64,000 bases of DNA from Actinotalea soli (GTDB lineage: Bacteria > Actinomycetota > Actinomycetes > Actinomycetales > Cellulomonadaceae), in assembly GCF_017565425.1 (NCBI RefSeq), contig NZ_JAGEMK010000008.1, forward strand, positions 62,001 to 126,000, given 5' to 3'. Made by a program: the position numbers and the translations under genes. Below, one piece after another: positions 23,897 through 34,058 of this stretch. The notes below the pieces were generated by a model. It was not told the origin of the DNA. It saw only the letters and a list, made by a program, of their open reading frames with translations, and did no database searches. Numbering within the stretch: the first letter of the stretch is position 1; every line of letters starts with the position of its first letter.

Positions 23897-26800
23897 TCAG
23901 GGACGGAGCTGGACGACGCGCCACCAGGTGAGGAGGCCCGACGGCTCTGTCCCCGCCTCGCCCGGACCGCCGTACCTCTCGTAGAGCACGCCGTTGTGGA
24001 TGACGCGGTCGCCGTTCTCGTACCAGGCGCCCCGCCGCCACTCGCGGATGACGTCGATCTCCTGCGGACCGGACTGCACCCCTGCGTCCGCCCGCGCGGT
24101 GACCGCGAGGGTCGGCGTCCGGTCGTGGTGGCTGTTGTCCCGCGCGGAGAGCCGTCCGGCCAGCACCGCCTCACCGCCAGGGCTGATGCCCGGACCGCCG
24201 AGGGCGCAGGTGACCGCGAGGCCCGACTGGGAGCAGCTCCACGCGTTGCTCTGACTGGTCCACCCGATCCTGTCGGAGAGCTGGACCGTCATGGTGACGC
24301 CCGTGGCCACCGACTCACCGCTGTTCGTGACCCGCAGGGACAGCGGCACCTGATCTCCGTGCTCCACCACGACCTCGCTCGGCGCTGCCACGGCGAGCCG
24401 GGCCGGCCCCTGGACGACGACCCGCAGGGTGCCGCCCGGGACGTCCTGGCCCGCGGCCCCCACCGAGACGGACAGGTCAGCGGCCCCGGGCCGGGCGGTG
24501 CCCGACGCGAGCACGGCCGAGACGGTGGTCGGCGCGACGCCCCCGGGGGCGATCACCCCGGCGTCGGCGCACACGGTGCTGGTGCCGCACGTGGTCCAGG
24601 CAGCGCCGTCCGGGGTGGTCACCGACAGCCCGGCGGGCACGCCCGCGAGGCGCACCTGCGCCGGCGCGCTGGTGGTGCCGCCGGTGTTGGTGACCTCGAA
24701 CCGGACGGTCCTCGGGGCATCGAGCCGCACAGGATCCGGGCCGACGTCGACCGGGGTCACCGCGAGCGCGGCCGGGGCCGAGCGCACCGAGACCGCCTGG
24801 ACCGCCTCCCTCTCGCCGGCCCGCACCTGGACGTCGACCTGCTCGTCGACGTCCAGCAGACCGGGCGCGGCGCTCACGGGGAGGGGGACGGCGACGGCTC
24901 CGCTTGCCGGGACGTCCACGGTCGCGCAGAGCTGCCCGTCGCAGGGCGCCCAGGCCGACGGCGCGACCTGGAGACGACCCGCCGGGACGGACGCGCGGAG
25001 CTGCACCGCCCGCGCGTCAGTCCCCCCGACGTTGGTGGCGCGCACCGTGAGCGACTGCGGTGCACCCGGCAGCACGGGGTCCGCGGATCCCGTCATCTCG
25101 AGGTTCACGTCGGCCGGTGCCGAGGTCACACGGCCCCTCAGCGTCGCGCGATGCACCTGCCCGTCGCCCTGGATCCAGGTCCGCAGCCCGATCGACGCGG
25201 TGGTGTCGGTGTTGGGGGTGGAGCTGTACCCGAGCGTGACCCGCGCGCTCAGCCTGGCCGTCGCCCCCGGCGCGATCCCCGAGGTCTCGCAGGTCCAGGT
25301 CTGGGAGGCGGCACCGCCCGGCTCGCAGGACCAGGACGCTGACACCGAGGTCCGTGCACTGCCGAACCCGGGAGCGGTGACGATCGGTTCGACGGATCCC
25401 GGAACGTCGGCCGGGAAGTCGAAGGCGATCAGCACGGCACCCGACAGGACCTGGCCCTCGTTGGTGATGGGGATGTCGACCACCGAGGCCGGGCCCGAGG
25501 AGACGGAGGTCTCCGCGACCGACCCACCGATCGTCACGACGGCCGGGCCGCGTGGCGTCTCGGGCTCTGCGGGCGGCGCAGGGGGACCAGGGGGCGGCTC
25601 CTGCGGGGCCTGCGGCTCGGGCACCGGCTCGCCAGGCACCGGTGCGGGGTCGGGCACCGGCGCGGGCTCGGGAGCGGGCGCCGTGTCTCCGGCCGTCGGC
25701 GGCTCCGCGGCCGGCGGGGGCTGCGGCGTGAACGGCGGGATCGACGTCGGGTCCGTCGGGTCGGCCACCTCTGGGGCTGTCTCGTCAGGTGTGGTCGAGG
25801 GGTCCTCGAAGAGGTCGGTGCCACCAAGGTCCTCGCCGGAGGCGACGGTCTCGTCGCCCGTGGTGCCGGTGTCCGGGTCGGTCTGCTGCTCGACGGCGGT
25901 GGGCCCGGGCTCGGCACCGGAGAACACGCCCATGGCACCGGCGACACCGACGGCCCCCGCCACGACCACGGCAGCAGCGACGAGCCCCAGGGCCAGCGGC
26001 GCCCCGGCGATCGCGGCGACGATGCCGGTGGCCGCCGCCGCTCCGGCACCGACGGCCCCGGTCGCCCCGGCACCCGCACCGGCTGCTGCGACGGTCCCGC
26101 CGACGCCCGCACCGCCCGCCGTCGTCCCGGCACCCGCTCCAGCGGTCGTCGCGCCGGCACCTGCGCCGGAACCACCGGCCCCGGCACCTCCCGCGCCCGT
26201 GCCGGTACCGCCACCGGTGCCCGTGCCCCCGCTGCCACCCGCGCCGTTGCCCGTCCCGGCCGCCACCGTCGCCCCGGAGGCCGAGACCGCCGTCGCGCTG
26301 GCACCGACCGCACCGCCGAAGCCCAGGCCGTGCAGCACCACGTACGCCGCGCCACCGAGGACCAGGGGGGCGATGACCACGCGCATGCCGTGGTTGACGT
26401 CGCCGAGCTCGAGGACGAGCCCGCGGCAGTGGCCGCAGTCGTCGAGGTGCAGCTCGACCATGGCGGTCTCGCGCTTGGCCAGGCCACCACGCACGTAGGC
26501 GCCGAGCTTGGGGTTGACGATGGTGCAGGCCTCGTCCTGGGGGGCGGCGAGGTGCTGCTGGAGGTAGGCCTGGCGCAGGCCCTCCCGGGCGCGGTAGGCC
26601 AGTGCGGCGACGCCGTTGGCGGTCAGGCCGAGCACCGGAGCGATCTCGGCCGGGCTGAGCTCCTCGACCTCGGTGTACCAGAGCACCGCCTGCCACCGTT
26701 CAGGCAGGGACTTGTACGCGTCGGAGACCAGGCCGCGCTCGAAGCCGACCATGGTCGGCTCCTCGGTCGACTCGACCGCGCCGGCCGCCGTCTCGAAGGC

Positions 26801-27121
26801 CTCGAGGTCGTCGGTGGGCTCGGTGCGACGGCCCGTCTCGATCCGCTTGAGGGCGACCCGCCGCAGGGCCGTGAAGAGGTAGGCCCGGAAGGCGACGTCG
26901 GGCCCGCCGCCCTGCTGGACGGTGGCGAAGACGTTGGAGAAGGCGTCGGCGACGGCGTCCTCGGCGTCGGCCGCGGAGTTCGAGTACTGTCTGGCGACGG
27001 CTCGGGCAGCGTCGACGTGCCGCTCGTAGAGCGTGCCGAAGGCCGCGGACTCCCCGGAGCGCACCGCGGTGATGAGCTCGGCGTCGGAAGCGAGCTCCCA
27101 ACCGCTGGCGATGCTCGTCAC
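23897..27121 (-). CDS. ECF sigma factor fused to zinc anti-sigma motif, membrane segments, beta repeats and a carbohydrate-binding module
   Basis: This 1074-residue protein opens with sigma region 2 (about residues 12-95, DAEDAVADAFSNVF) and sigma region 4 (about 130-185, LPERWQAVLWYTEVEELSPAEIAPVLG split across the helix-turn-helix). A zf-HC2 anti-sigma motif follows, H225-x3-C229-x2-C232. Hydrophobic segments lie at about 247-268 and 366-400, separated by a Gly/Ala-rich stretch. A Pro-rich linker (about 455-525) leads to four DUF11-like repeats, each with a Trp-x-Cys...Cys pair, and a final 45-residue chitin-binding-type module (WYENGDRVIHNGVLYERYGG). It looks like a one-protein cell-surface sugar sensor and transcription switch. 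The GTG has GAGGAGG five bases upstream. ECF groups with such extensions are known in actinobacteria. Confidence 0.9.
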   Translation of the reverse strand: MTSIASGWELASDAELITAVRSGESAAFGTLYERHVDAARAVARQYSNSAADAEDAVADAFSNVFATVQQGGGPDVAFRAYLFTALRRVALKRIETGRRTEPTDDLEAFETAAGAVESTEEPTMVGFERGLVSDAYKSLPERWQAVLWYTEVEELSPAEIAPVLGLTANGVAALAYRAREGLRQAYLQQHLAAPQDEACTIVNPKLGAYVRGGLAKRETAMVELHLDDCGHCRGLVLELGDVNHGMRVVIAPLVLGGAAYVVLHGLGFGGAVGASATAVSASGATVAAGTGNGAGGSGGTGTGGGTGTGAGGAGAGGSGAGAGATTAGAGAGTTAGGAGVGGTVAAAGAGAGATGAVGAGAAAATGIVAAIAGAPLALGLVAAAVVVAGAVGVAGAMGVFSGAEPGPTAVEQQTDPDTGTTGDETVASGEDLGGTDLFEDPSTTPDETAPEVADPTDPTSIPPFTPQPPPAAEPPTAGDTAPAPEPAPVPDPAPVPGEPVPEPQAPQEPPPGPPAPPAEPETPRGPAVVTIGGSVAETSVSSGPASVVDIPITNEGQVLSGAVLIAFDFPADVPGSVEPIVTAPGFGSARTSVSASWSCEPGGAASQTWTCETSGIAPGATARLSARVTLGYSSTPNTDTTASIGLRTWIQGDGQVHRATLRGRVTSAPADVNLEMTGSADPVLPGAPQSLTVRATNVGGTDARAVQLRASVPAGRLQVAPSAWAPCDGQLCATVDVPASGAVAVPLPVSAAPGLLDVDEQVDVQVRAGEREAVQAVSVRSAPAALAVTPVDVGPDPVRLDAPRTVRFEVTNTGGTTSAPAQVRLAGVPAGLSVTTPDGAAWTTCGTSTVCADAGVIAPGGVAPTTVSAVLASGTARPGAADLSVSVGAAGQDVPGGTLRVVVQGPARLAVAAPSEVVVEHGDQVPLSLRVTNSGESVATGVTMTVQLSDRIGWTSQSNAWSCSQSGLAVTCALGGPGISPGGEAVLAGRLSARDNSHHDRTPTLAVTARADAGVQSGPQEIDVIREWRRGAWYENGDRVIHNGVLYERYGGPGEAGTEPSGLLTWWRVVQLRP

Positions 27122-27305
27122 GCCGGCCTCCTCACCGCGCCCGGTGCACGGTTTTCCATCGCACAGGTTCTCATGCTGCGTCAAGCCGTGGCTGCCGCCG
27201 TCCGAGGGATGACACCGCACGTCCGGCACGCTGGGACTTTGCAGGGCGCGAAGATTTTTTCCCGGAGTCGCGTCATGACTCGACGGTTCGCCGCTCTCAT
27301 CCTCC

Positions 27306-28073
27306 GTGAGACCTTCCGAGCAGCTCCACGACGCGCCGGCCGCGAGCCTGCGCGAGCAGTGGCGCGCCACGACGGTGGACTCCGTCTGGCTGCGACCCGG
27401 TGACTGGTACCACCCCGCCGTCGACGCCCTGACCGAGGCAGTCAGCGCACGCCGCGACGCGACCGCCCCTGCCTTCCGTCTGGGCGAGGTGCGCGGCGCC
27501 GCCGGGGTCGGGATCGCCGAGACCCTCGACGATCTGGCCGTCCTGTACCGCCTGGTCGACGCCGAGCCCGGCCTCGACGTGCTGCGCTCGCTGTGCGAGG
27601 GCTGGTCCGCCGCGAAGGACACCACCGCGGTGCACGGCGGCTGCATGGACGCCGAGTCCGGCCTGCCGACCGTCGACTACCTGGGTGTCCGCCTCGCCGA
27701 GACCTACGGGCTCGCCGGCAAGCACGCCCACCACGCCTTCATGACCCACTGCCTGGTCCTCATCGACGTCGCCGCCGGGGACGTCCCGCCGTGGCGGCGC
27801 ATGGCCCGGTCGGCCGCGATGGGCCGCGCGCTCACGTCAGCCCTGGCCCCCGGGCACCCGATGGCCGCGCTCGGTGGCGGGGCCTTCGCCGTCCTCGTCG
27901 GGCGGGACTGGGAGCTCGGCGAGACCGTGCGCCGCATGCGCGACCAGGTCAACGAGCACGCCGACCGGCTCCAGATCGCCGAGCTCATGCGCCAGCCCCC
28001 GCGCATCTGGATCGAGCCCCTGCCCGAGACCCACGCCCGGGCCGTGAACCTCCTGGACGACCTGCGCCGCTAG
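27306..28073 (+). CDS. Degenerate GGDEF-domain protein
   Basis: The 255-residue protein has an unassigned N-terminal half. From about residue 115 its segments align with a diguanylate cyclase fold: DAESGLPTVDYLGVRLAE (usual DxLTGLxNRxxL), CLVLIDVA (LLxDID), and MAALGGGAFAVLVGRD at 186-201, where GGDEF has become GGGAF. With the catalytic Asp and Glu lost, and no RxxD inhibitory site, it is unlikely to make cyclic-di-GMP. It may be a scaffold or a degenerate nucleotide sensor. It is divergent from the fused sigma gene. No Shine-Dalgarno site precedes the GTG. Confidence 0.68.
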   Translation: MRPSEQLHDAPAASLREQWRATTVDSVWLRPGDWYHPAVDALTEAVSARRDATAPAFRLGEVRGAAGVGIAETLDDLAVLYRLVDAEPGLDVLRSLCEGWSAAKDTTAVHGGCMDAESGLPTVDYLGVRLAETYGLAGKHAHHAFMTHCLVLIDVAAGDVPPWRRMARSAAMGRALTSALAPGHPMAALGGGAFAVLVGRDWELGETVRRMRDQVNEHADRLQIAELMRQPPRIWIEPLPETHARAVNLLDDLRR

Positions 28074-28136
28074 GTGTGACGTGGACCCTGGCCCGTTCGT
28101 TTGCCGGGAAGGGTCGACGCACCCAAGGATGACCCG

Positions 28137-30266
28137 GTGACCTCCCCCACCTCACCGTCCTCCGGGCCGCGCGACAGCTCCGTGGCGACCGCCCCCGCCG
28201 ACCCGTACCTCTGGCTCGAGGAGGTCGAGGGCCCCGAGGCGCTGCGGTGGGTCGAGGAGCGCAACGCCGAGGCGATGGCCGCCCTCGAGGGGCCCGAGCT
28301 CGAGCGCATCCGCGGGGAGGTCCTCGAGGTCCTCGACTCGCAGGAGAAGATCCCCGTGGTCGTCGAGGCCGACGGTCACCTGTACAACTTCTGGCGCGAC
28401 GCCGAGCACGTGCGCGGGCTGTGGCGACGCACCACCCTCGACGAGTACCGCACACCCACCCCCACGTGGGAGGTGCTGCTGGACCTGGACGCCCTGGCCG
28501 AGGCCGAGGGCGAGAGCTGGGTGTGGCACGGCGCGAGCCGCCTGCGCCCGGGCTCGACCCGCGCCCTGCTCGACCTGTCCCGCGGGGGCTCGGACGCCGA
28601 CGTGACCCGCGAGTTCGACCTCGAGACCCGCACCTTCGTCACCGACGGGTTCGTGCGCCCCGAGGCCAAGGGCGGGGTCAGCTGGATCGACCGGGACACC
28701 CTGTTCGTCGCGACCGACACCGGCCCGGGCTCGACCACGACCTCGGGCTACCCGCGCATCGCACGTCGCTGGCACCGCGGCACGCCGCTCGAGCAGGCCG
28801 AGGTGGTCTTCGAGGGCACGGTCGAGGACCTCGCCGTGAGCGCCCACCACGACCGCACCCCCGGCTTCGAGCGCGACATCGTGGTCCGCGCCCTGGACTT
28901 CTACCACCAGGAGGTCTACCTCCTGGGGCCCGACGACGTCGCGACCCGCCTCGAGGTGCCCACCAGCGCCGAGGTCAGCCTCAAGCGCGAGTGGCTGCTG
29001 GTCGAGCTGCGCGAGCCCTGGGAGGTCGACGGTGCCACCCACCCGGCCGGGGCCCTGCTCGGCACCCGCCTGGTCGACTTCCTGGCCGGCGGCCGTGACC
29101 TCGAGGCCCTGTTCACCCCGACGCCCTCCTCCTCCCTGGCCGGGACCAGCTGGACCCGCAGCCACCTGGTCCTCACGGTGCTCGACGACGTGACCCACCA
29201 CCTCGAGGTCCTCACCCCGCGCGACGGCGGGTGGTCCCGCCGCACCCTCGGGGCGGCCGACGTCGGCGCCCCGGCCCTCGGGACGCTGAGCGTCGCCGCG
29301 GTCGACTCGAACGACTCGGACGACCTGTGGCTCACGGGCACCGACTACCTGACCCCCACCACCTTCTCCCGGGTGAGCCTGGGCGAGGTCGCGGACGCCC
29401 GTGGGGCCACCGAGGCCACGGACCCGACGTCGGCCGTGCAGGTCGAGCACCTCAAGCGCGGGCCGGCCTTCTTCGACGCGAGCGGCCTGACCGTGGCCCA
29501 GCACATGGCGACCTCGGCCGACGGCACGCGCATCCCCTACTTCCTGGTGCGTCCCGTCGCCGCCGAGGGCCCGGTGCCGACCCTGCTCTACGGGTACGGC
29601 GGCTTCGAGATCTCCCTGACCCCCGCGTACTCGGGCGGGGTGGGTCGTGCCTGGCTGGCCCGGGGCGGTGCGTACGTGGTCGCCAACATCCGGGGCGGCG
29701 GTGAGTTCGGGCCGGGCTGGCACCAGGCCGCCCTCGGCAAGGACCGCCACCGCGCGTACGAGGACTTCGCCGCCGTGGCCCGCGACCTCGTCGAGCGTGG
29801 CATCACCACCCACGCCCAGCTCGGCGCCCAGGGCGGCAGCAACGGTGGGCTGCTCATGGGCAACATGCTGACCCAGTACCCTGAGCTCTTCGGCGCGATC
29901 GTCTGCCAGGTGCCCCTGCTGGACATGCGCCGCTACAACCAGCTCCTCGCCGGCGCCTCGTGGATGGCCGAGTACGGCGACCCCGACGACCCCGAGCAGT
30001 GGGAGTTCGTCCAGACCTTCTCCCCGTACCACCTGGTCGACCCCGAACGCGCCTACCCCCCGGTGCTGTTCACGACCTCGACCCGCGACGACCGCGTGCA
30101 CCCCGGCCACGCCCGCAAGATGGCGGCCCTGCTGATCGACGGCGGCCGCGAGGTGCTCTCCTACGAGAACATCGAGGGCGGGCACGGCGGAGCGGCGACC
30201 AACGCCCAGGCGGCGCACATGGCGGCCCTGGCGTACACGTTCCTGTGGCAGCGGCTCGGGGGCTGA
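28137..30266 (+). CDS. Prolyl oligopeptidase family serine peptidase (S9A)
   Basis: The 709-residue protein combines an N-terminal seven-bladed propeller (beginning PYLWLEEVEGPEALRWVEERN) with a C-terminal alpha/beta hydrolase domain. The nucleophile is Ser568 in GGSNGGLL, the Asp is in STRDDRVHP (residues 651-652), and the His is His683 in EGGHGG. It should cleave short peptides after proline. There is no signal peptide, so it is probably cytosolic. AAGGA eight bases before the GTG at 28137 supports that start over an upstream TTG. A strong terminator follows. Confidence 0.94.
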   Translation: MTSPTSPSSGPRDSSVATAPADPYLWLEEVEGPEALRWVEERNAEAMAALEGPELERIRGEVLEVLDSQEKIPVVVEADGHLYNFWRDAEHVRGLWRRTTLDEYRTPTPTWEVLLDLDALAEAEGESWVWHGASRLRPGSTRALLDLSRGGSDADVTREFDLETRTFVTDGFVRPEAKGGVSWIDRDTLFVATDTGPGSTTTSGYPRIARRWHRGTPLEQAEVVFEGTVEDLAVSAHHDRTPGFERDIVVRALDFYHQEVYLLGPDDVATRLEVPTSAEVSLKREWLLVELREPWEVDGATHPAGALLGTRLVDFLAGGRDLEALFTPTPSSSLAGTSWTRSHLVLTVLDDVTHHLEVLTPRDGGWSRRTLGAADVGAPALGTLSVAAVDSNDSDDLWLTGTDYLTPTTFSRVSLGEVADARGATEATDPTSAVQVEHLKRGPAFFDASGLTVAQHMATSADGTRIPYFLVRPVAAEGPVPTLLYGYGGFEISLTPAYSGGVGRAWLARGGAYVVANIRGGGEFGPGWHQAALGKDRHRAYEDFAAVARDLVERGITTHAQLGAQGGSNGGLLMGNMLTQYPELFGAIVCQVPLLDMRRYNQLLAGASWMAEYGDPDDPEQWEFVQTFSPYHLVDPERAYPPVLFTTSTRDDRVHPGHARKMAALLIDGGREVLSYENIEGGHGGAATNAQAAHMAALAYTFLWQRLGG

Positions 30267-30343: not shown

Positions 30344-33533
<3,190 letters not shown>

Positions 33534-34058
33534 AACCGCTCCAATCCGTCGCGGACGCGCTCGACGTCCTCGCTCGTTCCCAGAAGCTCGAAGCGGTACA
33601 GGTACGGGACCTGGCACTTCGCGCTGATGATGTCGCCGGCGATGCAGAAGGCCTCGCCGAAGTTGGTGTTGCCCGCGGCGATGACGCCGCGCAGAAGGCC
33701 CCGGTTGTGCTGGTCGTTGAGGAACTTGATGACCTGCCGAGGCACTGCGCCCCCCTCGTTGCCGCCTCCGTACGTCGGGACGACGAGCACGTACGGCTCG
33801 TCGACGCGCAGGAAGGGGTCGGTGGGACGCAGAGGGATCCGGCGGGCCGGCAGGCCCAACCGTTCCACGAAACGCTGGGTGTTGCCCGAGACGCTGGAGA
33901 AGTACACGAGCGAGCTCATGGTCGACCTCTCTGCTCCCCGGTGGGACGACGCGCCACCGACCAGAACCGGCCGGTGGCGCTAGGGGTGGTGCTGCCGGCG
34001 GTGGACTGCCGGGGTGGCGGTGGCGACGCTCAGAGCGCCGGGACCGCGAGAGTGGTCG

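Follow-up and report, generated by a model that had tools for sequence, protein, structure and literature searches.

This study concerns a 64,000-nucleotide stretch of the Actinotalea soli genome (contig NZ_JAGEMK010000008.1, positions 62,001 to 126,000), hereafter referred to as the window, and within it (i) a gene that joins an extracytoplasmic function (ECF) sigma factor, an anti-sigma domain, a membrane region and a surface part in one polypeptide, (ii) a divergently oriented partner gene, and (iii) a predicted promoter located between the two. The features, in window positions, are the following.

23897..27121, minus strand: ECF sigma / anti-sigma / membrane / surface fusion; 1074 aa, GTG start at 27121, stop at 23897, one open frame
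26825..27031, minus strand: sigma region 2, residues 31-99 (Pfam PF04542 Sigma70_r2, 4.6e-10)
26582..26719, minus strand: sigma region 4, residues 135-180 (Pfam PF08281 Sigma70_r4_2, 6.7e-6), with the helix NGVAALAYRAREGLR
26423..26527, minus strand: zinc-binding anti-sigma domain, residues 199-233 (Pfam PF13490 zf-HC2, 6.6e-8)
26318..26392, minus strand: first hydrophobic segment, residues ~244-268 (hydropathy), possibly not spanning
26066..26317, minus strand: Gly/Ala-rich linker, uncharged and Cys-free, residues ~269-352
25913..26065, minus strand: second hydrophobic segment, residues ~353-403, probably spanning the membrane, with an acidic stretch behind it
25517..25912, minus strand: Pro/acid-rich linker, residues ~404-535 (Pro density)
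24062..25516, minus strand: four DUF11-like beta repeats, residues ~536-1020, with one Cys pair each
23900..24043, minus strand: chitin-binding-type (CBM5/12-like) tail, residues 1027-1074
27270..27298, plus strand: predicted target promoter GCGTCAT-N16-GCTCTC, with 7 nt between its end and the GTG of the partner
27306..28073, plus strand: partner with a helical N-terminal domain and a degenerate GGDEF-like domain; 255 aa, divergent from the fusion

The GTG of the fusion gene is directly preceded by the Shine-Dalgarno-like sequence GGTGAGGAGG. Domain searches and inspection of the cysteines and hydropathy recovered every part of the protein that a first-pass annotation of the gene had listed (sigma regions 2 and 4, zinc motif, hydrophobic segments, Pro-rich linker, four repeats, chitin-binding-type tail); a Cys pair was indeed present in each repeat, while the W-x-C motif also ascribed to every repeat was found in two of them, the other two having W-x-x-C. 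The zinc ligands C199, H225, C229 and C232 are invariant in all 33 rows of an alignment of the window protein with 32 relatives. The eight ectodomain cysteines form four pairs (599/611, 727/732, 845/851 and 963/972) spaced 118-128 residues apart, and the Pfam DUF11 model matches the last of the four repeats alone (residues 916-967, 2.1e-5). The tail matches Pfam CBM_5_12 over residues 1027-1048 at 0.0029 and 18 bits, which is under the curated cut-off of 26.2; a profile built from seven such tails retrieved chitin-binding regions of chitinases and chitin deacetylases (best 3.6e-6; chitinase C 2e-5, ChiA1 8e-4), with some unrelated chains matched more weakly. The worry that a frameshift might split the gene was not borne out, as none is apparent and the relative at locus L014 aligns across residues 2-515 of the 539 outside residues searched, at 33% identity. 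The fusion is a single match in its own genome (3.63 Mb, 32 contigs), and its closest named relative is in Actinotalea sp. C106 (97% identity over the 297 residues present on that contig).

A scan of named genomes yielded 79 loci with a related fusion (from the best 80 of 119 relatives), most of them in Cellulomonadaceae, Promicromonosporaceae, Demequinaceae, Micrococcaceae and Nocardiopsidaceae. Homologs of the partner were found by tblastn at 75 of the 79 loci, in all cases divergent from the fusion; one more was detected by profile at L075, upstream of the fusion on the same strand, and none was found at L039, L071 and L087. The partner was present at 51 of the 53 loci that have long flanking sequence on either side, compared with 8 (IDI), 10 (SDR), 5 (S9) and 5 (glycosyltransferase) of the 79 loci for other neighbours of the window fusion, controls taken without matching for distance. 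Among 118 genomes of the class, the partner profile matched 68 at an E-value of 0.001, most of them within the GGDEF part only. A total of 13 homologs scored above 40 bits and reached past the GGDEF part, a cut chosen after the list had been inspected, and all 13 are located beside a sigma-zinc fusion. Nine of these pairs are divergent and four are on the same strand, which indicates that the link between partner and fusion survives rearrangement; a local scan added two further partners, and in all same-strand pairs (the four and these two) the partner comes first.

The partner sequence alone had no match in Pfam or NCBIfam. Like degenerate GGDEF proteins, it gives profile matches to GGDEF structures: a 71-row profile matched solved GGDEF proteins (best 3.8e-7) and six GGDEF domains of the same genome (hhalign probability 90.5%), and Pfam GGDEF_2 matched 6 of the 71 members (best 6.5e-4). 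The AlphaFold2 model (mean pLDDT 85.8, pTM 0.55) has five helices followed by a compatible, GGDEF-like order of elements. On profile comparison and modelling the partner is thus assigned a GGDEF fold; it differs from GGDEF proteins in its helical N-terminal domain and in the loss of the catalytic GG(D/E)EF signature, where the consensus reads LGxGxxAVL. Both the partner and the promoter lie beyond the fusion gene that the first-pass annotation covered, and both were missed there.

The partner would be either a cytoplasmic modulator of the sigma factor or a downstream effector. One possible version of the former, to which we give about one chance in three, is that it serves as a second anti-sigma or a co-sigma factor acting on the fused sigma, the two proteins forming a switch with its own feedback promoter. 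GGDEF-like domains that lack the catalytic motif often bind ligands or proteins, and the partner combines such a domain with a helical N-terminal domain and adjoins the fusion in both gene orders; however, no copy of it was found in the neighbourhood of the Streptomyces-like and f5 fusions, and these must function in its absence.

GCGTCAT is present in 69 of 76 regions comprising the 400 bases upstream of the partner, at 35-36 bases from the assigned start in 63 and at 85-168 bases in the other six, in which the start of the partner may be misassigned. At a fixed distance 18 nt further on, where the rows were not anchored, a TCTCA box is conserved at 81-100% per base, with most neighbouring positions at 36-64%. 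At loci from other families, the first box is followed after 16 bases by CGTCTC, CGTCGT or a similar sequence (by eye). The resultant element GCGTCAT-N16-(C/G)NTCTC has the form of an ECF promoter, and in the window its box 7 nt before the GTG implies a leaderless transcript. It also stands before the partner-sigma pair in five genomes (f23 loci) and before the sigma gene itself at L103, L104 and L087, where no partner was found, with a variant at L106, which suggests positive autoregulation; it was not seen in the 300 bases inspected at L105 and at three Streptomyces-like loci.

A first form of the pattern (GCGTCAT-N17/18-TCTCA) had one site in the A. soli genome, and the revised form obtained by cross-family comparison (GCGTCAT-N16-SNTCTC) added a second, intergenic-looking site, so that the two strict matches in this genome are those before the partner and before a gene for a solo LuxR-type (GerE) regulator. 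The second site is located at G000:C22:338587-338615 (L128:1501-1529) and the gene, encoding 78 residues, at L128:1588-1821, downstream of apparent glycine-cleavage genes. A looser pattern gave 16 matches in the same genome versus 2 for its reversed form, and of 12 inspected most look coding.

The strict pattern was then counted in 41 family genomes, where it gave 55 matches versus 4 for the reversed pattern. Sorted by genes starting no more than 250 bases downstream, 14 matches precede a partner, 17 a solo GerE regulator and 1 a sigma paralogue (32 of the 55 in all), the GerE regulators in other family genomes being homologous to the one in A. soli. Matches assigned to these genes occurred in 21 of 33 genomes with a close fusion (E <1e-90) and in 0 of 8 without one (p 0.0013; genomes counted by hand, six of the eight having a weaker fusion type and two none), a comparison that is partly circular, the partner travelling with the fusion. 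The GerE matches alone gave 13 of 33 versus 0 of 8 (p 0.03). In 21 Streptomyces-like control genomes there were 26 matches versus 15 reversed, none of them before a partner, sigma or GerE homolog. The partner family was not seen in these controls, which weakens that part of the comparison; for GerE alone it stands at 17 of 55 family matches versus 0 of 26 (p 0.0005).

The strict pattern also occurred in single cases from which no claim is drawn, namely before a protein with ice-binding-like pAdhesive_15 and DUF5979 domains (L144:2-1453), just before or within an EAL-domain frame with a possible c-di-GMP link (L131:1537-2157), and at an ATPase gene (L130). A second, weaker-scoring fusion paralogue (frames of ~540-980 aa) is present in many family genomes, and at L173 the promoter is found in front of it.

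The genome has 23 matches to sigma region 2, and the element could accordingly be read by another sigma factor or regulator, with the fusion and the partner being neighbours under separate control. We regard this as unlikely, given that the element has the form of an ECF promoter, accompanies the fusion regardless of which it precedes (partner, partner-sigma pair or sigma gene), and has its gene-assigned matches confined to close-fusion genomes. That the sigma factor of the fusion itself reads GCGTCAT-N16-SNTCTC is what we infer from this distribution.

Among the relatives the inside half of the fusion is well conserved and the outside half is variable in length. Of the 79 frames, 61 are closed, a few of these with broken-looking ends (L031, L060, L069), and 18 run off their contig. 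Protein lengths, counted from the start of the match, range from ~460 to 2149 residues, excluding L069 (308) and L031 (443) whose ends look artefactual. In Actinotalea and its near relatives the sigma part retains ~77-82% identity and the outside part ~30-38% where it can be aligned, which was the case at 7 of the 79 loci. Pfam searches with 16 relatives found DUF11 above the cut-off in 8, CARDB in some, and CBM5/12 and DUF3344 below the cut-off in some; in seven more distant relatives Ig, Big_6 and NPCBM were found above and collagen below the cut-off. By tail patterns, the 62 complete proteins (here and below including the window) were sorted into 5 CBM5/12-like, 20 DUF3344-like (a label derived from one weak match in L025), 8 Trp/Cys and 29 with none. 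With L014 and L034, which the patterns miss, chitin-binding-type tails total 7 of 62. Judged by these comparisons the outside half is exchanged from one relative to the next, neither the repeats nor the tail being conserved, and the four-repeat arrangement is particular to the branch of the window.

Two side observations concern the assemblies. The contig breaks inside the fusion gene (18 of 79) often fall in the Gly/Ala-rich or Pro-rich linkers, which indicates that assemblies often break there and that such proteins may be under-annotated. A metagenome-assembled genome labelled Proteobacteria (L025) has both fusion and partner, is placed among Cellulomonas in the tree and is probably misbinned.

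The first-pass annotation had proposed the sensing of a glycan at the cell surface. In this scenario the tail would bind chitin or beta-glucan, and the sigma factor would be released to switch on degradation genes, by analogy with SigI/RsgI of Clostridium thermocellum, which links polysaccharide sensing to sigma control using two proteins and a different sigma family. The CBM5/12-like tail fits this scenario, as do the polysaccharide-degrading habits of Cellulomonadaceae in general and the NPCBM module fused in both Streptomyces-like relatives searched with Pfam. The tail is rare among the relatives, however, the other ectodomains having Ig, Big, collagen-like or DUF3344-like modules instead, and none of eight proteins downstream of the element that were run through Pfam is a glycoside hydrolase, a sample outside which most of the 23 unassigned matches lie. 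Chitin sensing was consequently rejected as the general function, and polysaccharide sensing of this kind is considered improbable.

The location of the outside half was assessed from cysteines and charges, two hydrophobic segments being present in most relatives. The number of cysteines after segment 2 is even in 55 of the 58 complete proteins having any (p 1e-13, the sequences being related), the exceptions being L023, L027 and L060, the tail of which looks out of frame. Of the 62 proteins, 59 have a net acidic stretch of 40 residues directly behind segment 2, and none has a net basic one. The linkers between the segments have no Cys in any of the 62 proteins and are net positive in 11, net negative in 8 and neutral in 43; where distant relatives have short linkers, the charge ahead of segment 2 is mostly positive (L075, L077, L078, L083, L084 and L085, not L081). 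The even Cys counts and the acidic flank lead us to place the repeats outside the cell, in agreement with the oxidising outside location supposed in the first-pass annotation, with segment 2 alone probably spanning, once. Two spanning segments, which the presence of two in most relatives would allow, would put the C-terminal half in the cytoplasm and leave no surface sensor, an arrangement rejected on Cys parity and flank charge, disfavoured further by the positive short linkers and the adhesin-type modules, and to be considered highly improbable.

Further along the window a prolyl oligopeptidase (S9) gene at 28101-30266 adjoins the partner and, being found at so few loci, is probably unrelated, and ribonucleotide reductase-like frames (by eye) at 30344-33617 on the minus strand coincide with a local drop in GC, which is ordinary.

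At the level of sequence, the architecture of the fusion, the conserved partner, the conserved element and the recurrent places of that element are documented. We consider it fairly probable that together they constitute a surface receptor made of one polypeptide, with a small predicted regulon. In this receptor the fused zinc anti-sigma domain would keep the N-terminal ECF sigma factor inactive at the membrane, while the long, Pro-rich, disulfide-bonded and adhesin-like ectodomain would reach out of the cell. Binding, pulling, shedding or wall damage on that side would set the sigma part free, most likely through proteolysis, in analogy with IutY, for which it is reported, and SCO4117, for which it is proposed in the available excerpts of PMC8999054 and PMC5826349. 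The free sigma factor would then transcribe the degenerate GGDEF partner gene from GCGTCAT-N16-SNTCTC and, from the same type of promoter, the solo LuxR-type regulator elsewhere in the genome. As for the ligand or trigger, such varied outside modules speak against a single sugar, and the constant inside versus the rapidly swapped outside suggests that surface contact or the state of the cell wall would be sensed.

Several points weigh against a surface receptor with this regulon. Of the 55 strict matches, 15 fall within probable coding sequence and 8 at other places; among the 33 close-fusion genomes, 12 have no strict match at the expected genes; and the genomes are related, so that counts are not independent. 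No partner was found in 20 of the 35 class genomes matching the sigma-zinc profile at 1e-25, although some of these matches cover the sigma part only and no more than 22 candidates were scored in any genome, which makes absences soft. Exact GCGTCAT is missing from 7 of 76 upstream regions, two of which (L080, L084) have GCGTCAC. In region 4 the helix reads LASRARE in Streptomyces-like loci versus LAYRARE, a difference that is only suggestive since Arthrobacter relatives keep the element yet have LAVRARE; in Arthrobacter, a supposed correspondence of one region 4 residue with the final -35 base was likewise not borne out.

The type of fusion is already known. As suspected in the first-pass annotation it belongs to the general kind of fusion represented by ECF52/ECF53 (available parts of PMC8999054 and PMC5826349), having sigma regions 2 and 4, a C-terminal zinc finger and membrane helices (judged by hydropathy) as in ECF48/52/53-type proteins, for which activation by proteolytic release is proposed (PMC8999054, in part). 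In the same excerpts ECF52 (SCO4117 of Streptomyces coelicolor) resembles the fusion in its ECF sigma, zinc finger, membrane region, Pro-rich extension and C-terminal surface module, most fused ECF groups are predictions only, and the trigger of SCO4117 is given as not known (PMC5826349, PMC8999054). The Streptomyces-like loci L110-L112, which we infer to be ECF52, differ from the window in having no GGDEF-like partner, no GCGTCAT element and a different region 4 helix; L111 and L112 end in NPCBM, for which Pfam finds no match in the window fusion. L110-L112 form their own branch (100/100), separate from the window, in an unrooted tree with long branches that leave its exact place uncertain. 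ECF53 and ECF48 of Actinobacteria resemble the fusion as predicted C-terminal anti-sigma, zinc finger and membrane fusions, and some ECF52/53 members carry carbohydrate-binding or glycosyl hydrolase domains (PMC8999054, PMC10766802, as far as available); the accessible portions of the ECF53 and ECF48 accounts mention neither a GGDEF-like partner nor this promoter. Our literature search, outside which the ECF classification papers lie, likewise found neither of these for such fusions, nor the targets; all three may be recorded in those papers.

For the family as a whole we put forward, tentatively and at slightly less than even expectation, that interchangeable adhesin-type ectodomains are joined to one sigma core which would drive a dead GGDEF protein and a solo LuxR regulator from a dedicated promoter. 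Comparative genomics here supplies a concrete promoter together with two targets that recur and a partner family that has no name yet, which makes the pathway directly testable; if the reading is true, surface contact would be coupled to a c-di-GMP-type domain through a sigma factor.

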